Shown here: one piece after another, positions 1 through 24,052 of the stretch
Layout of the letters: each line of letters starts with the position of its first letter
Numbering within the stretch: the stretch's first letter is position 1
Source: a virus
Strand: one strand, 5' to 3'
Virus record (IMG/VR): IMGVR_UViG_3300027983_000064
Location: 1-32,796 of that record
DNA length: 32,796 bases
Made by a program: the position numbers and the translations under genes
Notes under the pieces: generated by a model
Seen by the model: the letters and a program-made list of their open reading frames with translations, nothing else
Database searches by the model: none
What the model was told of the DNA's origin: nothing

Positions 1-779
1 TAAGATGTAGGTAAACTTGATGCATCTAAGTATCTTTTAAATAAAACAGTTCTGTGATCATAATGACAGGTGTTATTTCTGTCATCCGTTCTTTTAGTTA
101 TTCTACCTTTCGTTACTGTACCTGTTAAGGGAGTAGTATAGTCTAATGTGTACTCAAGTTTATCATTTGGATAAGTTGGTTGCCAAGCTTCAGAAGCTAA
201 GTTATTTGCTGAAATAGCAAACACTACAATTGGATCAACTGCAGCTGTTTTAAAGTTATTTCCTGCGATTGGAGTTGTAGCATCTGAATAATCTGGTTGA
301 TCATACATTGTTGCAAAATCAGCAATCAAATACATTTGACTTGGTATAAGAGTTGAAGCATCTCTTAGATCAACTAAATCTGCATGAAGTATTGGGACAA
401 TAGTTGCTCCTGTGGGAGTTATACCTAAGCTGCTTAATGTATCACCAACCCAGTCAACTATTTTTACAGCAATTTCGTTTATTGAGTCAAACTGATTAAA
501 AACAACTGTATCCGCAAGAGGATAATTAGCCGTCTTATCATCAGACGCTTTTACTATACCGCAAAAGTAATCTACAATCTTAGAATTAATAACACCAAGA
601 GAATCTCCTTGCGCATAAACGGGTTCTCCTGCACATTCTTTATCTTCCCCTAAGTGTAATACACATTCCGAGTTAAAGACCTCTACGCATGGCTGAGGTG
701 TAGCACATTCTGCCTCTTCACAATTAACACAAGGAGTTGATACTGGTAATGATTGTTGTTCACATGATGGACATCCCAT
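1..779 (-). CDS. Cys-rich virion/tail protein, partial (3' end outside window)
   Basis: Open frame read from an ATG at 779 to the window edge with no stop, giving 259 codons. The N-terminus is very rich in cysteine, with C-x-x-C and C-x-x-x-x-C spacings in the first 50 residues (MGCPSCEQQS, TPCVNCEE). The middle contains hydrophobic and beta-type segments. It is the last gene seen in the late minus-strand block and follows four other Cys-rich genes, so a virion (tail or adsorption) role is inferred from position. I do not recognise a family. The start is the only ATG that leaves a normal 14-nt gap to the next gene upstream. Confidence 0.7.
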   Translation of the reverse strand, partial: MGCPSCEQQSLPVSTPCVNCEEAECATPQPCVEVFNSECVLHLGEDKECAGEPVYAQGDSLGVINSKIVDYFCGIVKASDDKTANYPLADTVVFNQFDSINEIAVKIVDWVGDTLSSLGITPTGATIVPILHADLVDLRDASTLIPSQMYLIADFATMYDQPDYSDATTPIAGNNFKTAAVDPIVVFAISANNLASEAWQPTYPNDKLEYTLDYTTPLTGTVTKGRITKRTDDRNNTCHYDHRTVLFKRYLDASSLPTS

Positions 780-793
780 AATTTCTTTTTTTT

Positions 794-1471
794 TTAATAT
801 ATTATTCCTGGTAACGGTTGAAAATTACCAGCCCTTTGTAAATGAATACTGCAACCGTTGCATTTAATAACTACCCCGTTGTTTATAATTGCAGTCAGTA
901 TTTCTCCTTTTTGTTCCTTAGTTAAAACAGGAGTAAGGGAATTTAAATAATCCAACATTGCGATTATTCCGCTTTTCCCATTTAAACTAGATCCTTCTAA
1001 TAATTGAGTAAGAATGTTATCAGATACCGTCGTTTCGTTAGTTAGTCTTTGAATAATTGACCCAAAATCGTTATCACAGCAAGTAGGTGTTTTATTAAGA
1101 TCAAAAGTTTCATCAAAATCCTCAAGATCATCTTTAGTTAAGCTTTTATTTAAACAACAACCGTACTTATAACTGGTGTCAGCATTGGGTCCAATGGAGT
1201 TAAATCCTAAATCCTCAGCTAGATCAAAAAAATGTTCAGGACCACCAAGATAATAAAATTTTCCTTCACCTGAACAATCAGGACAGCAGAAGAAACTTGA
1301 ACCAGTAACATTAACTCCCTGGAGTAATACATAATCAGTTGCGTTTTCTAATGTTCCCCCAGCTGCTTCATTTTTTGCAAAAATCAGTTTAAGCAAATAG
1401 ATTAAAGGATTAACACACGGTGTAGGCAATCCTTTAGCAACGGTTTCTTTACAACATTCTGTAGTGTTCAT
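794..1471 (-). CDS. Cys-rich virion protein, unknown family
   Basis: A 225-aa protein with repeated vicinal cysteines (TECC, FFCCPDC, YGCCLN, PTCCD) and a final CNGC. It shares this style with the flanking 166-aa and partial 259-aa products. The middle has alternating acidic and hydrophobic stretches, and there is no signal peptide or membrane segment. It sits 10 nt downstream of the 166-aa gene and 14 nt upstream of the partial gene, so all are probably cotranscribed. A role as a tail or neck component is inferred only from location after the capsid and connector genes. The paired cysteines could bind metal or form disulfides after release. Confidence 0.65.
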   Translation of the reverse strand: MNTTECCKETVAKGLPTPCVNPLIYLLKLIFAKNEAAGGTLENATDYVLLQGVNVTGSSFFCCPDCSGEGKFYYLGGPEHFFDLAEDLGFNSIGPNADTSYKYGCCLNKSLTKDDLEDFDETFDLNKTPTCCDNDFGSIIQRLTNETTVSDNILTQLLEGSSLNGKSGIIAMLDYLNSLTPVLTKEQKGEILTAIINNGVVIKCNGCSIHLQRAGNFQPLPGIIY

Positions 1472-1481
1472 TTTTAAAGTA

Positions 1482-1982
1482 TTAAGTTAACAGAGTAGCC
1501 TCTAATGAAATAACTCGTTCTTGCAAATCTGTTATTGCGTTAGTTTGACTTTGGATCAAATTTATTTGATTACAAAGTTGGTCGGCAATCATAGCGATGT
1601 AAGTCTTAACATCTGTAACGTCATCACCACCCTCAGATTGCAGACAACCAGCAATTGCTATCTCATCCGTTGCAGGAGAAACGACAGTACCATTAACGGA
1701 CTGTCCTGTTTTTAACTCACACAAGGTATCCAAAACTAATTGAAAAAGATCAACAAATGTTTCAGGACCACAGTTGGTATCAACCAAGCACGACACGTCG
1801 TAACTATTAACATTTAATGTTTTAAGAACATCACACAACTTTGTTGCTAGTTTATAAACAACATCAGATACTCGATCTCCTGTACACAACTTAATCCCTG
1901 GTATATTTGGACCAGACCATACAACACAATTACTTGTTGTTGTAACACACCCATCAGGCTTTGTATTTTTTGGAACTCCCAT
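1482..1982 (-). CDS. Cys-rich virion protein with C-terminal coiled coil
   Basis: A 166-aa protein. Residues 1-90 carry regularly spaced cysteines (GCVTTTSNC, KLCTGD, KLCDVL, VSCLVDTNCG, DTLCEL). The last 35 residues (LCNQINLIQSQTNAITDLQE onward) have the heptad pattern of a trimeric or dimeric coiled coil, as often found in tail fibre or whisker subunits. It lies between the 209-aa and 225-aa genes of the same late block. The fibre or tail assignment is an inference; I cannot name a family. Confidence 0.65.
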   Translation of the reverse strand: MGVPKNTKPDGCVTTTSNCVVWSGPNIPGIKLCTGDRVSDVVYKLATKLCDVLKTLNVNSYDVSCLVDTNCGPETFVDLFQLVLDTLCELKTGQSVNGTVVSPATDEIAIAGCLQSEGGDDVTDVKTYIAMIADQLCNQINLIQSQTNAITDLQERVISLEATLLT

Positions 1983-2005
1983 AGTAATAATATAATGAAA
2001 TTTTT

Positions 2006-2635
2006 CTAATTAGGACAGCACATTTCTGCATTTTCTACTAAATCCATTTTTAAAACAAAATGGTCTATTACAGATTGTTCTATGTCATCTGATATGTGCA
2101 TTGCAACACCCATTCGTTTTTCCATCATCTGTCTGTAAACAGTATTGGCAAAACTACACTTGATGTCAATTACTTTTTTAACGTTTATTCCACCAAAATA
2201 AGCTTCTGCATATATTACTTTTGTGTTAGTAATTGGTGCCGCAGGAGGTATAGGTAAACATTCATTACACGTTTTTACAGTATCTGCTTTAAAAAAGAAC
2301 TCTTCCCAGTCAATAGTTTTATACTCAGCTACACATGTTACATCTGTCAATATAAAACAACCTGTAAATTCATTTTGACTTTCATCAGTTATTTTTGTAA
2401 TTACTTTTCCAAGTAAATCATCTGGATGAATTGAATTACTCATTGCACCACTAAACTTAAACCTTACAGGCAACCCATCCATTTCTACAGGAAGATTGTT
2501 ACAACATTGTGTAAGTTGGTAATACTCATTAGTATCTTCACCTTCAGTAAGAGGAAAAATTACATTTTTTGAATAACCTTCAAGACCATAGTATAAAAAT
2601 TTAAGTTTATTACCAAGGTATACTTCTAAGTCCAT
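2006..2635 (-). CDS. Cys-rich virion protein, unknown family
   Basis: A 209-aa protein. It has an N-terminal hydrophobic/aromatic beta-type half, a QCCNN motif near residue 44, a CNEC pair near the middle and a terminal CCPN. The C-terminal third is more helical and charged (YRQMMEKRMG). It begins 2 nt after the stop of the 41-aa zinc-ribbon-like peptide, which suggests translational coupling. The position after the connector genes suggests a tail or neck component, but this is not shown by motif. Confidence 0.6.
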   Translation of the reverse strand: MDLEVYLGNKLKFLYYGLEGYSKNVIFPLTEGEDTNEYYQLTQCCNNLPVEMDGLPVRFKFSGAMSNSIHPDDLLGKVITKITDESQNEFTGCFILTDVTCVAEYKTIDWEEFFFKADTVKTCNECLPIPPAAPITNTKVIYAEAYFGGINVKKVIDIKCSFANTVYRQMMEKRMGVAMHISDDIEQSVIDHFVLKMDLVENAEMCCPN

Positions 2636-2637
2636 TG

Positions 2638-2763
2638 TTATTTATTATTTTGGTTATAAATCACTACACACCTAGAACAACAAATTGTTCCGTTATTTGC
2701 AGTTACTAAATAGGATCCTGTACATGTACAAGTCCCACAATTTGGGCAAGTTTGTGATGACAT
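2638..2763 (-). CDS. 41-aa zinc-ribbon-like peptide
   Basis: A very short frame with seven cysteines in 41 residues: C-P-N-C-G-T-C-T-C near the start and C-C-S-R-C near the end. This is the two-knuckle pattern of a minimal zinc ribbon. It fits exactly between two late genes, with 2-nt gaps on both sides, and has its own ATG at 2763. This tight packing and the family-like cysteine content are the evidence that it is real. It could be a metal-binding scaffold peptide or a small virion part. Confidence 0.55.
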   Translation of the reverse strand: MSSQTCPNCGTCTCTGSYLVTANNGTICCSRCVVIYNQNNK

Positions 2764-2765
2764 AA

Positions 2766-3326
2766 TTAAAATATTTTGCAGTTAAATTCATCAATTAATT
2801 TGTTTGCATAGTTGTACAAAACCATACCTTCTTTTGAGTTATCGCAGAACTCAACCTTCGCTTTTGCCGCTTCTACATAACTCATAATAGTCATAAGATG
2901 ATTTAGCTTACTTGTTACCGTAGGTGAAGGCTGACACGCAGACAACTGTAGTTCACAAAGCTGAAGTTTAATTTTTTTGTTTATTGCCGTTACTCTTAAA
3001 TGGTCATACTCTACAAACAATCTGTCATTTGGTGACATTGAATAGTTAAAAGTATAAATACCATCAGGTAATGAATCAAAATCTACACCACATTCTGAAA
3101 ATTGTGTTTCTAAATTACAAGCAGTAAGATTAAAGACAAAACCCTTAGCTACTGCTGGAGTAGTGATGTTTGTAAAAGTAACACAATCACTGTAACCAGG
3201 AACGGTAACTTGTAATGTTGGACAAACGTAAGGCATTAAAACTTCATAAACACTTGTGTCTTCTACACGAATAACACATCCCGTCATGATGTCTGGAATA
3301 TTTAAGCTTAATTTATTTGTTGCCAT
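2766..3326 (-). CDS. Cys-rich beta-type virion protein
   Basis: A 186-aa protein. The first ~125 residues look beta-rich, with spaced single cysteines (TGCVIR, PYVCPT, SDCVTF, TACNLE, SECGVD), and resemble an Ig-like or jelly-roll fold. The last ~60 residues are helical (SKLNHLMTIM onward). It is the first gene after the 3345-3373 terminator, so it probably opens the Cys-rich sub-operon. On the minus strand just before its ATG is TACCTTTA, close to the Bacteroidetes TAnnTTTG box. Function unknown; a tail or receptor-facing protein is the working guess. Confidence 0.65.
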   Translation of the reverse strand: MATNKLSLNIPDIMTGCVIRVEDTSVYEVLMPYVCPTLQVTVPGYSDCVTFTNITTPAVAKGFVFNLTACNLETQFSECGVDFDSLPDGIYTFNYSMSPNDRLFVEYDHLRVTAINKKIKLQLCELQLSACQPSPTVTSKLNHLMTIMSYVEAAKAKVEFCDNSKEGMVLYNYANKLIDEFNCKIF

Positions 3327-3393: not shown

Positions 3394-4926
3394 TTAGATA
3401 CTGATTGGTGTAGAAGCAGTGTGTCCAAATACATCAAGTGTAACTGGTGTATTTGCCGCAGCCAACCACGTAGCAACGAATACTTCAAAAGAAGTAGCAG
3501 TAACCGCAGGAACATAAATGTTCAACGCATACTGATCGTTATCATGAATACCACTTGCATTGTTGTAACGAGGAACCGTGTGTTGTATCACATATCTTGT
3601 GTACTTAGCGAATCTATTGATTGAAGCACCAATTTGATCTCCTTGATTGATTTCACGCAATCTAATGTCATCATGGAAATGATTAGTTAAATACGTTTCA
3701 TCTAAGATGATGTTTTTCAAGATAGTGTCTCCAAAACCTTGACCCTGGAATCCTTCATGCTCAACAGAGATACACAATGCACTTGAGCAAGGGTTACCTG
3801 ATAAGTCAGTCATTGAAGCAATGATCTTAACAACTTCCTTCTCAAAGAAATCAGTTTTTTGGAAAGAACACTGAGTAAAGTCTGCATCAGAACTTACATA
3901 AGCACCAACTAAACGAATACCTGCTAATTTTCCTGCAACGTGTCCTGGAGATACATAAGTAGTCCAAATATCAAGTGCTGTGTATCCAGCAGCTAATGCT
4001 TCAGCAGCTGTAGCAAATAAAGCGTTCCCCTCTTCAGTATAAACAACAGGTCTTACAAAGTCCTTTGTGTATCTGTCTTCGATTATTTGGTTAGCCCAAT
4101 TAATCATTACTAACGTAGAGTCAACATTTGCTGGAGCTGCTCCTGTGCAACAACCTGTGTAAGCAGCATACGTTCTGTAAGAACGGTGATTCAAGAATCT
4201 TAAAACTGGAGATCCTCCTAAAGTTAATCCTAAGTTGTAAGATTCGTTACACAAGAACTCAAGATTACAACGAGCAAATACTGTTAAAGTAAAATCAGCA
4301 TCTGTTGTTGCAGTACCATCTGTAATTGTTACTACATCCGTAGAAATATATCCTGTACCTACTTTGTTAACTGTAACACTTGTTACAATACCAGCAGCAA
4401 TAGTTACATTAACTGTAAGTCCTGTTCCTGTACCACCAGTAGTAGCAACATCAGTAAAAACACCATCCGTAAAAGCAATACCACCCGTAGTAATAACCGC
4501 AGTTGGTTTGTTCAAGTTTGTGTTACCAACGTGAATAATTGCTTGTTCTGCATCAGCAGGAGTCATTTTCAAAAACTTATGGATAAACTTTGGGTTTATC
4601 ATTTTTGACTTGTTTGACTCAGCATATCCTCCGTGAAACGGACCGATTTTGTCGTTAGACATTAATGAAGCCGCAGCTAACACTAAAGGTTTACCTGCAG
4701 CAACTTGAGGAGAACCTGCTACAACTGAAACGTATGTGTTAGGATCGAAGAAACCAAAGGTTCCTTTTCCTAATGCAAACGGAGCTGCTGTATTTGATAA
4801 TTCGCCGGAATGAACTCCAGATTCAATTAAAAATCCTTCATTTACTGCTTTAGCAGTACCTGAACCCGCTTGGGTAACTTTTGTTCCTACAAATGACTTT
4901 CTGTAAGCGTGATTAAAATAACTCAT
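3394..4926 (-). CDS. Large virion structural protein with inserted beta domain
   Basis: A 510-aa protein. Residues about 140-215 form a Gly/Thr/Val-rich repeat segment (TGGTGTGLTVNVTIAAG, followed by a GTGY turn) of a type inserted in many phage structural proteins. Around it is a mixed alpha/beta body with few cysteines except FTQCSF, a GCCTG near the centre and PCSSALC. It has its own strong downstream terminator, which suggests an abundant product. The position two functional groups after the major capsid gene fits a tail tube, sheath or major tail/neck protein, but no catalytic or family motif settles which. The ATG at 4926 is the only good start. Confidence 0.7.
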   Translation of the reverse strand: MSYFNHAYRKSFVGTKVTQAGSGTAKAVNEGFLIESGVHSGELSNTAAPFALGKGTFGFFDPNTYVSVVAGSPQVAAGKPLVLAAASLMSNDKIGPFHGGYAESNKSKMINPKFIHKFLKMTPADAEQAIIHVGNTNLNKPTAVITTGGIAFTDGVFTDVATTGGTGTGLTVNVTIAAGIVTSVTVNKVGTGYISTDVVTITDGTATTDADFTLTVFARCNLEFLCNESYNLGLTLGGSPVLRFLNHRSYRTYAAYTGCCTGAAPANVDSTLVMINWANQIIEDRYTKDFVRPVVYTEEGNALFATAAEALAAGYTALDIWTTYVSPGHVAGKLAGIRLVGAYVSSDADFTQCSFQKTDFFEKEVVKIIASMTDLSGNPCSSALCISVEHEGFQGQGFGDTILKNIILDETYLTNHFHDDIRLREINQGDQIGASINRFAKYTRYVIQHTVPRYNNASGIHDNDQYALNIYVPAVTATSFEVFVATWLAAANTPVTLDVFGHTASTPISI

Positions 4927-4993: not shown

Positions 4994-5116
4994 TTACTTT
5001 TTTTTCTTTGCAGGGGCTTTCGCTGCAGATGCCTTTTTCTTTGCGGGTGCTTTTTTAACATCTTTTTTTTCATCTTTTTTCATCCATGGTGGAATCCATT
5101 TTCCTTTTGCTGCCAT
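4994..5116 (-). CDS. 40-aa Lys/Ala/Pro-rich basic peptide
   Basis: A short frame starting MAAKGKWIPPWMKK, followed by alternating KKAPAKKK-type repeats that resemble the tails of histone H1-like proteins. Nearly half of the residues are lysine. The opposite strand carries a Phe-rich frame that is only its shadow. It is the third of three consecutive tiny basic genes. A role in binding packaged DNA or as a cargo protein is inferred from composition. The gap to the preceding gene is 32 nt and holds ATTGTAAACAAT, a small palindrome. Confidence 0.6.
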   Translation of the reverse strand: MAAKGKWIPPWMKKDEKKDVKKAPAKKKASAAKAPAKKKK

Positions 5117-5148
5117 CACTTTTAGTTTAACATTGTTTACAATATGCT

Positions 5149-5282
5149 CTATTTTTTCTTATGGGTTCTTGCAAAAGAACGAGCACTTTCTTTGCTTCCA
5201 AATCCCCAAGCTTTTAATGCTAGTTTTAATCGAGCAGGTTCACCATTTGGTTTTTTTTTCTGGTCCATGCTGGTGTAGCCAT
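5149..5282 (-). CDS. Small basic phage protein, frame broken at an A9 run (probable -1 frameshift)
   Basis: Translation begins at an ATG one base after the stop of the 59-aa gene (TAAC-ATG) and gives MATPAWTRKK. This N-terminus is like the AWTRK start of a common small phage protein family. In that frame it stops after 18 residues. Moving back one base on the A9 run (plus strand 5251-5259) opens a frame that continues PNGEPARLKLALKAWGFG and ends THKKK at 5149. The joined product is 44 aa. An ATG at 5268 would also open the second frame (MDQKKKPNGE), giving 39 aa without a shift. Options are ribosomal or transcriptional slippage, a sequencing indel, or internal initiation. Confidence 0.5.
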
Positions 5283-5283
5283 G

Positions 5284-5463
5284 TTAACACCTTTTTTTCT
5301 TAACAGATCCTCCGTTTTTGAAGGCTTCGTTTAAACTAGACTTTTCTAATTTAACTGTAACCGGTTTGCTCTTTTCACCTGTTTTTGCATCTGTCATTTG
5401 TTTTTTAACAGTCATCGTAGATGATACTTTTTTAACTGACTTTTTCTTTTTTGGTTGTAACAT
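5284..5463 (-). CDS. 59-aa Lys-rich protein
   Basis: A frame from an ATG at 5463 that starts MLQPKKKKSVKKV and ends SVKKKRC. Basic ends flank a middle segment with TDAKTGEKSKPVTVKLEKSS. It has no membrane segment. It starts 10 nt after the 234-aa gene and ends 1 nt before the next ATG, so translation is probably coupled. Its function is unknown. With its two small basic neighbours it forms a unit in the middle of the head-to-tail gene series, where DNA-binding or cargo proteins would be plausible. Confidence 0.6.
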   Translation of the reverse strand: MLQPKKKKSVKKVSSTMTVKKQMTDAKTGEKSKPVTVKLEKSSLNEAFKNGGSVKKKRC

Positions 5464-5473
5464 AACTTATTTA

Positions 5474-6178
5474 TTAATTGTTTGTTTCTACACTTCCACT
5501 TGCAATCTCTTGTTGAGTAATGCTTTCAATATCTCCCGCAAGGATTTTAACGCATTCATCAATTAAAACCTCTACCAAATCATTTTTAAATTCACACTCT
5601 ACATCAGACATAGAAGGCAGTCCTGTGTATGGATCTACGGAACCTAAAAATTGTATAAAAACAGGAAACCTGTAATACACTAAATTTGTATCTGTGATGT
5701 GAAATAAATTATTTGTGTGTACTCTTAGTTTGTTTCCAATTAAAGTACATACGGTTTCCGACCATTCAAAGCTAGGTCTTTTATGTTCGTCATCGTTAAT
5801 TAAATCGATGTCTGCTTCAGGAACCAAGTATGTTTTCATTTTCCTTGGTTCCGTACAACATCCTTTTATAGCTTTCGGAGTTACTCTTTTCCAGGACATA
5901 TAGTTTTCTGGTAAAGCGTTTGACTCATAATACCCATCTTTCGAAAACATTGGTATTTTATAATCGGTAAGAAGAAGTTGCAGATCGTCTATTCGTTTTG
6001 TTGAACCTTCGTCTCCTTCTTTTAACATGTTTGTTCCATGAAGGTTTCTTCTTACCCAACTTAACATTCCTTTATTGAACGCTTCGGAAATTTTCCAAGG
6101 TTCAATGTTATCATAATCATTACTGGCAAGCTTATTCAAGCGTTGCTTAACTTTGATTTTAATTGCTAAATTGTTCAT
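5474..6178 (-). CDS. Head-tail connector / ring protein candidate
   Basis: A 234-aa protein with a helical N-terminal third (KIKVKQRLNKLASNDYDNIE and the following AFNKGMLSWVRR). A mixed middle contains aromatic segments, and a terminal acidic helix carries FKNDLVEVLIDECVKIL. This layout, and the position after portal, scaffold, capsid and a 329-aa protein, match adaptor or ring proteins that sit under the portal of podovirus-like phages. The assignment is by order and shape, not by a diagnostic motif. It is the last medium-sized gene before the tiny basic cluster. Confidence 0.5.
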   Translation of the reverse strand: MNNLAIKIKVKQRLNKLASNDYDNIEPWKISEAFNKGMLSWVRRNLHGTNMLKEGDEGSTKRIDDLQLLLTDYKIPMFSKDGYYESNALPENYMSWKRVTPKAIKGCCTEPRKMKTYLVPEADIDLINDDEHKRPSFEWSETVCTLIGNKLRVHTNNLFHITDTNLVYYRFPVFIQFLGSVDPYTGLPSMSDVECEFKNDLVEVLIDECVKILAGDIESITQQEIASGSVETNN

Positions 6179-6195: not shown

Positions 6196-7185
6196 TTACG
6201 CTTTCCACAACGTTTCTGTTTTTGCCATAAGCAAATCAAGTACGTCGTCATTTGCTGGATTTTTTAAGAACTCCAAAACTTCAGCAACATTTCTTCCAAG
6301 CATTATGTTTTGAGTTGATTCATAAAGAACCGAATCAGATTTTGCAAAAATGTATTTGTAAAAAACACAGTCTTTGATAATTGCTTTTATTTTAATGTCT
6401 TCTTTTGAAAGCTCAGTTGATTCAATAAACAAGTTAGCACATCTTCTAACGTCTTTGTCAAAAGAAGCTCCGTTTATAAACTTATCTAAGTTTTCATAGA
6501 TCTGATCAACCATCGTTGAGTTAGAGTACTGAATGCTGTTTATGTCAATGTTTTTAGCAATGTAAAACAATCTTCGCGGCTCATCTTCATAAATAGTTTG
6601 CAATAATGCCAATGCTTGATTACGAAGTTTAGTAACCGTAATTTTAGCAGAAACAGAATCAATCTGTCTATCTAAATACCATTTCTTTTTTTGAGCTCTT
6701 GCATCGTCAAAAGATTTTGCAATTAATGAAAAGCCTCCATTTTCAATAGCTTTAACCAACATCAAATCTTCCATTTTTTTCTTAGGGTCTAAGAATATTT
6801 CATCGTTCCCTAATCGAACCGTTACCTTACCCCAGATTTCACCGTTGTCAGGTTTAAACATTTCGATTTTACTCCAGAAGTCTTCGTCATCTATTTTTAC
6901 AAGATTGTAATTTCTTTCTTGCTCTAAAACAGAAACTGTCTGTCTGATGTCTTTAATTACAGCCGCTTTTTTATCTTTGTCCTGAATCATTTTTATTTCA
7001 GGTGCAAATTCATTCAACCCATTAAGGTATCTTGACTTTCCGTTCTGCTCAATTGCTGCTAATGATTCTACCTGGAATGTATTTGGAAACACAACATAGT
7101 TGTAATTTTCTAATCCCATGTTTTCATCTTCTGCATTAATGTAAGGCTTAATGCTTATTTTTCCTTTAAATGTTTGCTCACTCAT
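6196..7185 (-). CDS. Late virion-block protein, unknown function
   Basis: A 329-aa mostly helical protein with many charged residues (DKDKKAAVIKDIRQ, ARAQKKKWYLDRQ) and no membrane segment. It starts just after a terminator and a TACATTTG box, so it may have its own transcript. It lies between the 87-aa post-capsid gene and the 234-aa connector candidate. A head-completion, internal cargo or connector role would fit the position. I recognise no family. Confidence 0.55.
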   Translation of the reverse strand: MSEQTFKGKISIKPYINAEDENMGLENYNYVVFPNTFQVESLAAIEQNGKSRYLNGLNEFAPEIKMIQDKDKKAAVIKDIRQTVSVLEQERNYNLVKIDDEDFWSKIEMFKPDNGEIWGKVTVRLGNDEIFLDPKKKMEDLMLVKAIENGGFSLIAKSFDDARAQKKKWYLDRQIDSVSAKITVTKLRNQALALLQTIYEDEPRRLFYIAKNIDINSIQYSNSTMVDQIYENLDKFINGASFDKDVRRCANLFIESTELSKEDIKIKAIIKDCVFYKYIFAKSDSVLYESTQNIMLGRNVAEVLEFLKNPANDDVLDLLMAKTETLWKA

Positions 7186-7577: not shown

Positions 7578-9194
7578 TTATAACGATCCACCAGTAATAG
7601 GATTTCTCATTACGATTTTCAATACTTTCGTAGGATCTTCTACTTTGATTGCAGGCATAGCTTGCGTCATGTAAATTTTGTATCCGTTGAAGTTACCAGA
7701 AGAAGCAAACCCTTGAGATCTACCCATGTAATCCATTGTTCCATTTACATATCTCCATTGAAGATCTTTGTTCCATTTTGATTTCAATAACTTGATGTTA
7801 TCAGAACCATTCTCAGTAATATCGAAAACGATAAATGAGTAAGAAGACAATCTATGTCCATCAATGATTGGGTTCTCCGTATCATTGTTTTGTAAGTTGT
7901 CAAATGCAGGATTCAATACAAACTTGATGTTTGCTAAGAAAGGAATCATGTACTCTGTGAAAGAGAATCCAAATCCTAAATCCATTCCTGAACCAGTAAC
8001 TGCATCCAATTCCTTAGCATTCATAACAAGACCAGAAGAAAAAGCTTCTCTCTTGATAGCCTCATTGATGATTCTCATTCCTCCAAGACCTGTTTGAACG
8101 ATCAACTGACGTTTAGAATCTGGTCCTTGGAAGTCAACTTTACCGTTGTAGAAGTTGAATAACTCAGAACGGAAGATGTCTAATCTGAAATCAGCTTTGT
8201 TGTAAACATGTTTGAAAGACAAATCTAATTGTTTCCAAAGTCCAACAGATAATCTCAAGTCATCAGCACCGTCTTGCTTGATTCTACCTCCTTTACCCCA
8301 CATAAGGTAAGTTTCAATATCGTAAGCAATTTTAGAAAGATGGGCTGCTTCTAACTTAGTGATAAAAGTTTTAACCATGTCTCCATTTTCAACTGCTTTC
8401 TTCACATAAGATGTTCCTTTTGCTTGAACAAATCCTTCTAAAGTAGTAATTGATGGGTCTAATTCTGTGTCATTTGTTTTCCAAAGCTCAGTAACTGGTA
8501 CACGACTATCTGCATCCATACCACCTTTTTCCATCAATTTAACTCTTGATGAGATAGAGTAATGAACGTGTGCATCTGCATTTCCAACATAGTTGTAAAA
8601 CTCACGAGTTGTATGAGTTGTAGTCATGTCAGAATATCTTTCACCGTACTCACCTTTAGCAGAACCAACTCTGAAATAAGGAGTTTGGTTCTCCAAGAAT
8701 TTATTGTTAAATGCTTGGTAAGAATTTGAATTAACAATTTGCACTGTGTAGATCGTACCATCTCCTAAATCCAAAATGTCTTCATCTGTGATGAAAAGCT
8801 CCAATCCGTTGTATTTATCGTAAGTGATTATATCACCGTGACCAAAGCAACGCTTGTTCATTTTAATACGGAAAGGTGTACCGTCAACACCTTTACCTGG
8901 ATTATTTGGATCTAAATCTTCCATAATGTAAGGTAATTCCTCAGAAACAGGAGTTGACCACTTGTACTCACCTCTTGGGTGATTTACTTCAATTACATTC
9001 TTCCCATTAAAAGAAGACATCTTGTAAAGAGGCATTTCAATCTTTTTGGTTTGAGCCCATAATTCTACAGGACCTAAATCATCAGGTTGTGCATCTTTCA
9101 TCATTTGCATCATGTGAAATGAATCAACATGTGAGCTTGCTGTGTAATGGTTATCTCTTAAAAAGATACCATTATTTAAAACTGGTGTTGCCAT
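7578..9194 (-). CDS. Major capsid protein (probable)
   Basis: A 538-aa protein of the usual size for HK97-fold capsid proteins of larger Bacteroidetes phages. It has mixed alpha/beta composition, almost no cysteine (one in KRCFGHGD), and many Gly/Asn turns. It follows the portal and an acidic scaffold-like protein and is followed by a strong terminator. Packing order TerL - portal - scaffold - capsid is the classic head-gene order. No motif alone proves the HK97 fold, so the call rests on order, length and expression signals. The start MATPVLNNG at 9194 is the first ATG. Confidence 0.7.
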   Translation of the reverse strand: MATPVLNNGIFLRDNHYTASSHVDSFHMMQMMKDAQPDDLGPVELWAQTKKIEMPLYKMSSFNGKNVIEVNHPRGEYKWSTPVSEELPYIMEDLDPNNPGKGVDGTPFRIKMNKRCFGHGDIITYDKYNGLELFITDEDILDLGDGTIYTVQIVNSNSYQAFNNKFLENQTPYFRVGSAKGEYGERYSDMTTTHTTREFYNYVGNADAHVHYSISSRVKLMEKGGMDADSRVPVTELWKTNDTELDPSITTLEGFVQAKGTSYVKKAVENGDMVKTFITKLEAAHLSKIAYDIETYLMWGKGGRIKQDGADDLRLSVGLWKQLDLSFKHVYNKADFRLDIFRSELFNFYNGKVDFQGPDSKRQLIVQTGLGGMRIINEAIKREAFSSGLVMNAKELDAVTGSGMDLGFGFSFTEYMIPFLANIKFVLNPAFDNLQNNDTENPIIDGHRLSSYSFIVFDITENGSDNIKLLKSKWNKDLQWRYVNGTMDYMGRSQGFASSGNFNGYKIYMTQAMPAIKVEDPTKVLKIVMRNPITGGSL

Positions 9195-10676: not shown

Positions 10677-13412
10677 TTACTTAGGTTTTTTATCGTCATA
10701 TTTATTTTTGTTTTCTCTAGCAATTGCAAACTCTGTTTGTTTATTTCTTTGATCTGACATGATTTTTTCTCTCTCTAAATCTAATTTTTGTTGAGCCATG
10801 TTAGACTTGTTACCTTCTTTTTCTCTGTTAAAATTCATCGTTTCTTGATACTGCTCAGATTCACGCACACCTTTTAAGGCATCTTCATAATCAGATTCTT
10901 GATTTTGATTAATGTCTTGCTGAGCTGCATATCCAGCAGATTTAATTTCAGCTTCCAATAAACGACTACGACGATCCTTTTCTTTTTCCCGTGATTCGTG
11001 ATCCATTTCAAATTTCCGTTCATCCTGTCTTGCCTTAATTTCAGCTTCGGCCATTTGGTTCTCATGGTCCATTTTTTCTTTATTCGCAGCTGCTGCTTTT
11101 TTCTCAATTTTCTTCATCGCGCTATTCAGCGTGCCTAATGAATCAGCTTGCATTAATCCTCCTAAATCATAAATAGAAGCACCACTTGTATTGTTCTGAA
11201 TAAACAATTGTTTTAATTGCTCAAGAGTCGCTCTGTTGTTTGCATTTGTTTGACAAAAAACATTCAAATCAATTAATAACAAATCCGTACCATTCATTTC
11301 AAAGTTTGTCCTCTCCTCTGGAGAAATCATGCCTTGTAGTCTTAATGATGGATTTGTCGAGTGATAATACTGAGCAAGGTCAGTTCTCATTTTATGAACT
11401 CTTGGCATTAAGTGATCACTGTGCTGAGAAAAGTAAACTTCTGTTTGAGCATAAGAACCGCTTACTGCTTGTTCTACACCAGTTGCCGTATTTGTCTGTC
11501 CCAACTGTTGACCCATTCGTTGTGGATTAACTCCTACAACTTCCATCGCTTGTTGTTTAAAATAATTAGCTAACTGTATCCTGGACATTAATCGTCCACT
11601 CTGCTCCATATTTAAAACCTGATAATGCTGAAAGTTAGTTGCACTTTCAGTATTTGCAATACTTGGATCTAATGGAAGTATTGAAAAGTCTTTCATTGCC
11701 ACGTAGGCTTTGTCTAAGTTTCCTTTACCCCAGTCTTCTCCCATAGAATGCTTAGGTAATGCGTTTTGATCTAATACGACAACTGTTCCAATTTCATCTA
11801 TAAGAATATCTGCTATTTGATTATTACACATGTTGAAACCAATTTGTGCGGGTTTCATTAAATCAACTAAAGACATGGACTTCGTATTTCTGTCAGAAAA
11901 AACTCGTCCTTCTATTGGCAACTTAGAACCATAAAGAGAATTGTCTCCTTTGAATTGAAAACGCAAAGCTCCGGGTTCAGATTTATCTATACCTAAGTAA
12001 ATTGAACTGTGTTCTGATTTTTCTATTGAATCCCAAAGAGTACGATTGTTACCAATTTTAACACCACCCCAAACTTCATTAATCCAAGTCCATTCAATGT
12101 GGTCACCAAATATTAAATTCTCTTCATCTTTAGATGCTTTAAATGTTGTATTGTAAACAGGTTTGTCTAAAACAACATACGTTTCATCAATTATCTCAGT
12201 AATTATTTCTCCATTAATGTCAACCTTCGTTAAGTAACCAACTTTCTTTTGAGTTTTCCAATAAGAAGTTGTTACACGAGCCATACCTGAGTTTTCTAAT
12301 AATCCTGAATGCTGACTTTGACCTGTTATCCACCCTACAATATCACTATCTCCCATTTGATTGTCAAGAAAGCTCAAGTGTCTTTTCATATCAACACCAA
12401 CCATTCTGTTACTTTCTACAGACTCATCCGTATTGTAATCAGAACCATCTATCATTCCTGGTATTAAGCTTCGCGCAGAAGTTGACGGATACATTGACTC
12501 TAACGAATTTAATTGATCCTCAGTCATCAAGTATCCGAAAACATCAATAACATCAGCAATAGTCATTAATTCAATCCACCCAGCCCAGTTGGCTTGAGAT
12601 ATGTATTTAACATTTGGAGACTTATGGTAAAAAGTTAAAGCAGGGTTTAGTAAGTTAATGTCATAATCATTTTCTAACATTCTAAAATGCCAAAATTCAC
12701 TGTCAGTTATTAACGAATCCCTAAAAGCCTCTTCTTCCAATTCATCCATGTTAAATCGATTAACATCAATTGCATGTTGTTTAGTGGCCCATTGTTCACC
12801 AACAGTTTGATAGGTTTTATTGTAAAAACTTTCAATTGCAGGTAAACCTCGTAATGCTTCTGGATTTAATTGTTGTTGAGCTTCTTCTGAATTTGGATCC
12901 ATTCCTTGCTCAATCATTGCAGCAACCATTTTTTGTTGCGCATCTTCAAGTAAAACGGAAGAGATTGCTTCCATTTTTTTATCCATTATCTCATTGTAAG
13001 AATACTCATCAATTGCTCGGTAATCAACTTTAGTGTTTCTTTTTGCAAACTCTGTTACAAGAGTGTTTATTACATTAGGAATGATTGGATAAAACTTTAA
13101 ATCCATTGCTGAATCTTCATGGCCCTCGTCAATAAGAGCAGCCATCATGTCACCGTATTCATTTTCAACATCAGGGATGTAATCAGATTTATCAATTGTG
13201 CCAACTGCCAATTTATAATTCTTCATTAACCTACGGGACTTTTCTGTAATCTGCTTGATAGCCTGCCACTCCATCCAATCCATGTTGTGCATGGCATACT
13301 CAATATCTTTTTCTGCCATTGGAAGAAATTGGATAGGTTGAGTAAAAACACCAAACTTGTTACGTTTAGTTTTTTTACCTTTCTTAATATCCATTGCATT
13401 TAAAATCTCCAT
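10677..13412 (-). CDS. Portal protein
   Basis: A 911-aa protein starting directly after the TerL stop (adjacent codons). The first ~690 residues hold the long mixed alpha/beta body expected of a portal. A segment near residue 630 reads SRIQLANYFKQQAMEVVGVN, with the following GVEQAVSGSYAQTE typical of the portal stem and crown region. Residues about 760-911 are a charged coiled coil (KEKMDHENQMAEAEIKARQ), a tail seen in portals of crAss-like and related phages. It forms the dodecameric ring through which TerL pumps DNA. The 130-bp gap behind it has no strong hairpin. Confidence 0.8.
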   Translation of the reverse strand: MEILNAMDIKKGKKTKRNKFGVFTQPIQFLPMAEKDIEYAMHNMDWMEWQAIKQITEKSRRLMKNYKLAVGTIDKSDYIPDVENEYGDMMAALIDEGHEDSAMDLKFYPIIPNVINTLVTEFAKRNTKVDYRAIDEYSYNEIMDKKMEAISSVLLEDAQQKMVAAMIEQGMDPNSEEAQQQLNPEALRGLPAIESFYNKTYQTVGEQWATKQHAIDVNRFNMDELEEEAFRDSLITDSEFWHFRMLENDYDINLLNPALTFYHKSPNVKYISQANWAGWIELMTIADVIDVFGYLMTEDQLNSLESMYPSTSARSLIPGMIDGSDYNTDESVESNRMVGVDMKRHLSFLDNQMGDSDIVGWITGQSQHSGLLENSGMARVTTSYWKTQKKVGYLTKVDINGEIITEIIDETYVVLDKPVYNTTFKASKDEENLIFGDHIEWTWINEVWGGVKIGNNRTLWDSIEKSEHSSIYLGIDKSEPGALRFQFKGDNSLYGSKLPIEGRVFSDRNTKSMSLVDLMKPAQIGFNMCNNQIADILIDEIGTVVVLDQNALPKHSMGEDWGKGNLDKAYVAMKDFSILPLDPSIANTESATNFQHYQVLNMEQSGRLMSRIQLANYFKQQAMEVVGVNPQRMGQQLGQTNTATGVEQAVSGSYAQTEVYFSQHSDHLMPRVHKMRTDLAQYYHSTNPSLRLQGMISPEERTNFEMNGTDLLLIDLNVFCQTNANNRATLEQLKQLFIQNNTSGASIYDLGGLMQADSLGTLNSAMKKIEKKAAAANKEKMDHENQMAEAEIKARQDERKFEMDHESREKEKDRRSRLLEAEIKSAGYAAQQDINQNQESDYEDALKGVRESEQYQETMNFNREKEGNKSNMAQQKLDLEREKIMSDQRNKQTEFAIARENKNKYDDKKPK

Positions 13413-16977: not shown

Positions 16978-17205
16978 TTATAGTTTGTTATTTATTATTT
17001 TAGTTGCTAATGAAACTACGTCATTGTCATCAGAACTTATCATTTTTAAAAGCTTGGAGTGCTCTTCTTTAGTAATGCTACCTGTGTCTGTCAAAGCTTT
17101 TAGCTGCTCCTTTAAGTGAATGAATGAGAAACTCTTGTTAATTTCTTTCATCCCAAGGACTCCTGTATATATCCGTAAAGTTCTATCAATTAAGTTTTTC
17201 TCCAT
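16978..17205 (-). CDS. 75-aa helical protein, unknown
   Basis: The start is placed at MEKNLIDRTL (ATG at 17205), because the 12 residues before it in the longest frame lie inside the upstream gene and the ATG overlaps the end of that gene (ATGGAGAAAAACTTAATTGA). The product is helical (KEQLKALTDTGSITKEEHSK), with the two-helix pattern of small regulatory or structural proteins. It lies between the zinc-ribbon protein and the nuclease. Function unknown. Confidence 0.55.
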   Translation of the reverse strand: MEKNLIDRTLRIYTGVLGMKEINKSFSFIHLKEQLKALTDTGSITKEEHSKLLKMISSDDNDVVSLATKIINNKL

Positions 17206-17509
17206 CTTGTAGTTTCTTATTAAGAATGTATTCTTCTTCAAAGGTCAATTCTGCCAACCAGAAACCGTTTGGACATTCTGATGACAAAGACCTTGTTTTT
17301 AATTTCAAAGTGCACCCACAATCTCCACAGCAAGGACCTGTTCCAGGAACTACACACGAAGTACCTTTCTCATCAAACAGATCGCATTTTTTACAAACAG
17401 CAAGTCTTTCTTCAGCAATTAATTCAACGTGTTCAGTCTTAAAGAGGTTGTTCTTTATCCCCTCTAATATCTTGCCTTTTTCCTTCCAAATTTTTATTGC
17501 GTTTTTCAT
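17186..17509 (-). CDS. Zinc-ribbon protein
   Basis: A 107-aa protein with a four-to-six cysteine cluster in the middle: CKKCDLF, SCVVPGTGPCCGDCGC and SECPNGFW. Its pattern is that of a zinc ribbon followed by an aromatic cap. Proteins of this kind occur beside the late block of several Bacteroidetes phages. Its first 71 nt overlap the HU/IHF-like gene in another frame, which is unusual, but no later ATG exists. It could serve as a nucleic-acid-binding or transcription cofactor. Confidence 0.65.
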   Translation of the reverse strand: MKNAIKIWKEKGKILEGIKNNLFKTEHVELIAEERLAVCKKCDLFDEKGTSCVVPGTGPCCGDCGCTLKLKTRSLSSECPNGFWLAELTFEEEYILNKKLQDGEKLN

Positions 17510-23570: not shown

Positions 23571-24052
23571 GGAAGCAATAACTCATCAAAATAAACCAAA
23601 CAATCCTTAGCTATAGTCTTACGCTTACGAGCCAAATGAGGATTCAACATTATGTGCTTAAACTCAATCCCATCCTTAACACCACTAACATAATAAATCA
23701 CACCACCCTTATACAAACGCTTCATGAAATCAGAATACTTATTCCTTGTGTACTTCAACTCATCCATCAAAGACAAATCAGTATGAGGTACCTTGCGATC
23801 AATATACAAAATGTTATAACTGCCATTAGTCATATTGGCCATCTTCAAGATTCTCCCGTAATCAACAGGACTAAAGTTAACCAAAATGTAATTCAATGCC
23901 TTAGAATCAATCACAACGTATTCATCACTATGAACAATAACCAAATCCTCATCAACAACATTAACAGTGCTACCAGATGGTAATACCTCCCCAGTAGTAA
24001 GATCTACCATCTCACCAGTCAACTTCCTTTTCTTTACTATGGGTTTTATCAT
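23567..24052 (-). CDS. RepL-like winged-helix protein, first gene of its operon
   Basis: A 161-aa protein. Its C-terminal half holds a helix-helix-wing run (DELKYTRNKYSDFMKRLYK, GGVIYYVSGVKDGIEF) ending HIMLNPHLARKRKTI. This ending resembles the 'hxlNPxlxRKr' of plasmid RepL-type and related replication or regulatory proteins of Bacteroidetes. It likely binds DNA as a regulator or replication factor. The TATCTTTG promoter box lies just before its ATG, so the mRNA is close to leaderless. Confidence 0.6.
   Translation of the reverse strand: MIKPIVKKRKLTGEMVDLTTGEVLPSGSTVNVVDEDLVIVHSDEYVVIDSKALNYILVNFSPVDYGRILKMANMTNGSYNILYIDRKVPHTDLSLMDELKYTRNKYSDFMKRLYKGGVIYYVSGVKDGIEFKHIMLNPHLARKRKTIAKDCLVYFDELLLP

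Follow-up and report, generated by a model that had tools for sequence, protein, structure and literature searches.

Why should a run of phage head and packaging genes end in proteins unusually rich in cysteine? The question is raised by a virus record of 32,796 bases (IMG/VR IMGVR_UViG_3300027983_000064), which is probably a genome fragment and which we refer to, at its full length, as the window. A minus-strand operon encodes, in order, a terminase, a portal, a scaffold-like protein, a capsid protein, a 329-amino-acid (aa) protein, a ring protein, small basic open reading frames (ORFs) and a 510-aa protein. It then ends, from position 3326 to 3, in five proteins of 186, 209, 166, 225 and 259 aa together with a 41-aa peptide encoded between the first two. 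The initial annotation described this block as a run of Cys-rich virion proteins following the head and connector genes, and both composition and location bear it out: portal, capsid and ring genes precede the block, and its six minus-strand ORFs contain 56 cysteines in 1086 residues (5.16%). The eight head, ring and packaging proteins encoded upstream have 25 in 3790 (0.66%; odds ratio 8.2, P = 1e-19), and genes further upstream 1.34%. Shuffling bases within codon positions gave a mean of 20.7 and a maximum of 35 Cys codons against the 56 present which, together with the upstream comparison, rules out a chance or compositional origin. Relative to the composition of the block, CC is mildly enriched (7 versus 3.2 expected, P = 0.04) and CxxC more so (8 versus 3.0, P = 0.006). 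The accompanying claim of many paired cysteines applies to four of the six ORFs, as the 186- and 166-aa proteins contain neither CC nor CxxC. We consider it likely that the block carries the genes for the tail fibres of a crAss-like podovirus and for the collar on which they dock, and that the cysteines of these proteins form disulfides, zinc sites or both.

Relatives were collected as 80 viral contigs recruited with the capsid protein and 80 further loci recruited with a profile of the 166-aa family, several of the latter coming from the same contigs as the former. Single-sequence scans with the 186- and 209-aa proteins returned a duplicate contig only, the capsid protein being the productive bait. 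The gene order 510-aa, 186-aa, peptide, 209-aa, 166-aa is kept in 103 of 103 environmental loci with all five markers, and in 122 of 128 loci the peptide gene comes directly after the 186-aa gene, at a median distance of 19 nt. Median Cys contents are 5.0% in the 186-aa family (present in >120 loci), 10.1% in the peptide, 6.9% in the 209-aa family (116 loci), 4.3% in the 166-aa family, 6.4% in the 225-aa family, which is confined to a sub-clade of 24 loci, and 4.8% in the 259-aa family. Few residues of the block proteins are as well conserved as the cysteines, which are mostly near-invariant and in many cases invariant, as are Cys 19, 62, 63, 66, 105, 106, 132 and 204 in aligned relatives of the 225-aa protein.

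On its predicted structure and gene position, the 186-aa protein is most likely a tail hub protein resembling tail hub protein A (THA) of crassviruses. Its AlphaFold2 model (pLDDT 90) is a beta-sandwich followed by three helices. Foldseek gave no significant match to this model in the PDB; when its candidates were realigned, 7qol_W and 7qoj_G were the top two of 998 chains (Z 9.4 and 9.3), above general Fn3-like folds with Z of 8 or less. The protein had first been read as a ring protein, a reading that was dropped once the PDB chain proved to be phicrAss001 THA, gp38 (PDB 7qoj/7qol; Pfam PF25724). The alignment with gp38 spans 150 residues (rmsd 3.7, about 7% identity), and the 186-aa protein has the same two-domain fold of beta-sandwich and helices. 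It also has a similar Cys content: gp38 has 11 Cys in 215 aa (5.1%), so the premise of the initial annotation that virion proteins are seldom this rich in cysteine needs qualifying. In a viral structure library the first match was a phi17:2 structural protein (E 3e-10, TM 0.76-0.83); third came a cr128_1 protein that, at 167 aa, equals cr128_1 THA in length. Profile comparison relates the 186-aa family to phi4:1 gp56 and to Lbo-JY46 and csAssE-Sib proteins with 97% probability, and these in turn to crassvirus THA with 45% probability.

Synteny points the same way. The crAss001 genes run capsid, gp33, ring R4/R5 and R3, auxiliary capsid, THA, the hub-B protein THB, ring 2, IHF-like, ring 1 and muzzle. 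Like the gp38 gene, the 186-aa gene comes after the auxiliary-capsid gene and is followed further on by those for ring 2, ring 1 and muzzle; these three lie past the window edge and were read in a relative, L110. There the block gives way to a gene for a 193-aa protein, beyond which are encoded ring 2, ring 1 and muzzle proteins with Pfam matches above cut-off (CrAss_Ring_2 PF25702, 1.7e-21; CrAss_Ring_1 PF24228, 4.3e-8; crAss_MUZ PF25731, 1.2e-10). L110 hence carries a Crassvirales-type tail module in the part of the locus that falls outside the window fragment. The synteny with crAss001 and L110 places the Cys-rich genes at the tail-fibre-hub locus, with fibre-like genes inserted after the hub. 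The arrangement differs from that of phicrAss001 in having these fibre genes between hub and ring 2, and in having the 41-aa peptide where phicrAss001 has the 114-aa THB. Affiliation with the order Crassvirales as such was examined by similarity searches. The ring-1-like protein of L110 (L110:9650-10687) has 11 Cys, compared with two in crAss001 gp43, and includes a Cys-rich stretch, CAPATVNCRTCNSNPCNQTAAC, that is possibly a contact to the hub.

Two groups of named phages have comparable loci. In the Cellulophaga phages phi4:1 (gp56-gp53) and phi17:2 (gp58-gp55), gp56 shows detectable homology to the 186-aa protein and is followed by small Cys-containing virion proteins, although these genes encode far fewer cysteines than the window (gp56 has three). 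The phi4:1 record marks gp56, gp55, gp54 and gp53 as detected in virions by tandem mass spectrometry (MS/MS). Sequence homology of gp55-gp53 to the window peptide or fibre proteins was tried and was not significant. The proposed virion membership is therefore backed by MS/MS of a homologue for the 186-aa family, and by homology, synteny and structure for the set. Leptolyngbya phage Lbo-JY46 likewise has a THA-like protein. After it come a 92-aa protein, which begins MSCNTCG, and then 156- and 669-aa proteins, both with the Cys-rich N-terminal domain of the window proteins. Unlike the window, this phage has neither the zinc-ribbon-like 41-aa peptide nor a detectable member of the 209-aa family.

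As their homologies suggest, the 166- and 259-aa proteins most likely serve as fibres or adaptors and insert into the hub through this Cys-rich N-terminal domain. The 166-aa protein has a Cys-rich N-terminal domain (Cx6CVVWxG) and C-terminal coiled-coil-like heptads, and is homologous to the N terminus of the 669-aa 'tail fiber protein' of Lbo-JY46 (E 1e-22) as well as matching its 156-aa neighbour; in many relatives the family reaches 400-600 aa. The 259-aa protein, with an N-terminal Cys cluster, shares the domain (93.6% probability, E 2e-7 between the two family profiles), and one of its relatives runs on into collagen repeats that match phage tail fibres, with collagen repeats also present in a neighbouring protein. 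The 209- and 225-aa proteins are most likely further Cys-rich collar or fibre parts. The AlphaFold2 model of the 209-aa protein (pLDDT 81) has a beta domain and a helical hairpin, for which a PDB fold search gave no match other than generic helical hairpins at Z 6 or less. Members of its family range from 84 to 1093 aa, are rich in repeats and contain up to 77 Cys in one protein. The tandem repeats (for example, L080:16670-18904) are roughly 60-90 aa long with several Cys each (YxLTxC...DLxxYVG...CWxV...CxxC) and found nothing in Pfam or the PDB and a weak match of unknown function in PHROGs. The window protein appears to keep a single copy. Across the block proteins of the window, Pfam and PHROGs scans gave nothing useful except a weak virion-structural-protein match.

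The peptide, which had been annotated as a zinc ribbon, is a real gene as judged from its fixed position and from C6, C9, C29 and C32, which are invariant in 39 of 39 and in 71 of 71 non-redundant relatives. Its pattern (CPNC...CCSRC) has the four ligand cysteines of a C4 zinc ribbon in two CxxC knuckles about 20 residues apart, as in ribbons of the Elf1, GATA and DksA/TraR type; unlike these, most relatives have an extra C-x-C in the loop and a Lys-rich tail. The inner Cys pair is both present or both absent in all relatives (0 of 71 discordant). Weak zinc-ribbon matches (Elf1, GATA, DksA, TFIIB) are scattered across the family, with Elf1 in 8 of 39 members. None passed the family cut-offs, including the best (Zn_Ribbon_Prim, 4.5e-4), and the window peptide had no match at E 0.1. 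Similarity of the peptide or the 209-aa protein to THB (PF25711, which detects its control, gp39) had profile probabilities of 0.0-0.1%, and with only generic hairpins matched the C-terminal hairpin of the 209-aa protein is unsupported as THB. The peptide gene occupies the hub-B position, and its product probably clamps the hub as a small zinc ribbon or through disulfides.

Both metal binding and disulfides formed after release, as initially suggested, are plausible, and the latter have a direct precedent in the same organelle: disulfides stabilise the hubs and barrel of the phicrAss001 tail, among hub proteins, between hub and ring and between ring 1 and ring 2 (PMC10172136). The crassvirus hub is characterised by A2B units that disulfides join around a 12-fold barrel. 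In the block, gains and losses of cysteines tend to involve two positions at once. Cys 103 and 106 of the 166-aa family are both absent in 28 members, both present in 52 and discordant in one, with 6-7 changes on the tree; Cys 139 and 170 of the 225-aa family are discordant in 0 of 29 with two changes; and Cys 49 and 73 of the 259-aa family also change together. Coupled pairs of this kind fit disulfides better than four-ligand sites. A reading in which the same tail proteins bind mainly structural zinc (C4) in the cytoplasm, with few or no disulfides, would account for the four invariant cysteines of the peptide, the weak ribbon matches across its family and the CxxC enrichment of the block. 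We rate it as unlikely given the variation in twos rather than fours, the lack of CxxC and CC in the 186- and 166-aa proteins and the reliance of the known hub on disulfides; the only plausible sites for zinc are the peptide and the N-terminal Cys clusters.

We therefore favour the docking collar with disulfides, zinc sites or both, and we infer the oxidation or metal binding of these particular cysteines and the pairing of partners. The 186-aa protein would act like THA, building hubs around the tail barrel, and the peptide would clamp the hub. The 166- and 259-aa proteins would dock into it through their common domain, and the 209- and 225-aa proteins would supply more of the collar or fibres. 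Conserved cysteines would form disulfides within and between subunits that lock the hub, ring and fibre joints after exit from the reducing cytoplasm, and four-Cys clusters may bind zinc during assembly.

Several observations weigh against this proposal. Few of the Cys-pair changes are independent on the tree, and the change at 65/88 in the 166-aa family is one event. Searches of 14 large relatives, with working controls, detected no phage-encoded thioredoxin or glutaredoxin, and so oxidation would have to occur after release or be supplied by the host or medium. Nothing of known function matched the 209- or 225-aa protein. Direct profile comparison of the 186-aa family with crassvirus THA was not significant, and Pfam crAss_THA (PF25724) matched neither the window protein nor 40 relatives under conditions where gp38 matched with E 1.8e-84; hence we call the protein THA-like rather than THA and do not count it as a PF25724 member. 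Within this family, C17, C35 and the last Cys are lost independently, unlike one intrachain pair, and because the losses are not coupled these residues more likely act between subunits. Finally, the THA-like protein of a related module in Spirosoma terrae has two Cys only, and so the fold does not need the cysteines.

Some of the six, above all the peptide, might instead be late regulators or assembly chaperones encoded in the tail operon and absent from virions. Zinc-ribbon peptides are often nucleic-acid or protein adaptors, and no peptide homologue has proteomic support. We nevertheless regard this as improbable in view of the peptide gene's fixed place after the hub gene and of phi4:1 gp55 (100 aa, 6 Cys), which lies at the same place and, though not detectably homologous, is in virions by MS/MS. 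Two features would suit a role of the cysteines in host attachment rather than assembly, for instance by stabilising variable receptor-binding domains or by exchanging thiols with surface proteins: the Cys-rich 209-aa family is full of repeats and variable in length, and collagen or Fib_succ_major domains occur in fibre-like genes of relatives. We rate this role as very improbable, as the most conserved cysteines belong to the hub and the N-terminal docking domains rather than the variable C-terminal parts.

A disulfide-stabilised tail is already known from one crassvirus, phicrAss001 (PMC10172136), the only crAss-like phage with a solved tail structure. What is new is the extent of the Cys expansion, the zinc-ribbon-like peptide at the hub-B position and the Cys-rich families without matches; among the papers covered by a literature search, none described a Cys-rich tail block in crAss-like phages. 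The more than 100 environmental relatives, far richer in Cys, suggest that these phages generally use redox or metal locking as a strategy. We put forward only tentatively a redox-matured tail, in which hub and fibres are put together in the cytoplasm in a reduced or zinc-bound state and many disulfides cross-link them after lysis. If true, an abundant environmental phage group would have a covalently locked fibre collar made of the 209-aa repeat family, the Cys-rich docking domain and the 41-aa clamp, families with no described relatives. Hypothetical proteins gain putative functions as hub and fibre docking domain, and the N-terminal Cx6CV[VI]W-type domain offers a simple motif for spotting tail fibres of the group.

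Bacteroidota are pointed to as the hosts, since an isolate of Spirosoma, a member of that phylum, carries a related module. A crAss-like phage region of Spirosoma terrae KCTC 52035 (L182; NZ_JAAFZH010000004.1:512344-532625) encodes portal, capsid and ring proteins, the THA-like protein mentioned above, two 166-aa-family proteins and one 259-aa-family protein, and is probably an integrated prophage because it sits inside a 574-kb contig of the isolate genome. Matches in metagenome-assembled genomes (Sphingomonadaceae, Campylobacteraceae, Pseudomonadales) were on contigs of uncertain binning and were not used.

Table 1. Features of the window: the Cys-rich block and the head and tail genes upstream of it.
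Feature	Coordinates	Strand	Cys	Remarks
259-aa ORF	3-779	minus	10	open at window edge
225-aa ORF	794-1471	minus	12	
166-aa ORF	1482-1982	minus	9	
209-aa ORF	2006-2635	minus	9	
41-aa peptide ORF	2638-2763	minus	7	
186-aa ORF	2766-3326	minus	9	
510-aa structural protein	3394..4926	minus		crassvirus auxiliary-capsid position, as crAss001 gp36; matches Lbo-JY46 631-aa protein
Tail ring protein (R3/R4-like)	5474..6178	minus		profile versus crAss001 gp34; csAssE-Sib 'ring protein'
crAss001 gp33-like protein	6196..7185	minus		profile match E 6e-5
Major capsid protein	7578..9194	minus		phrog_11589, E 7e-28
Portal protein	10677..13412	minus		phrog_6547, E 6e-79; tblastn to crAss-like portals

Among the genes upstream of the block (Table 1), the ring protein matched the crAss001 gp34 profile with E 0.006 (Z=1000) or 4e-4 (Z=40) and the csAssE-Sib protein with E 3e-66, and the 510-aa protein has 7 Cys in the window and as many as 21 in relatives. 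Between these two genes are small basic ORFs rich in Lys (4994-5463, minus strand). In relatives, basic ORFs rich in Gly and Lys surround the ring gene in varying combinations, within the stretch from the gp33-like to the 510-aa gene, and in the same region many also have a conserved protein of ∼150 aa. Outside the tail block, a 107-aa ORF (17186-17509, minus strand) contains 8 Cys in a zinc-finger-like pattern (CKKC, CCGDCGC). At about position 24000 of the window gene orientation switches and the GC skew shifts, the right part being on the plus strand.

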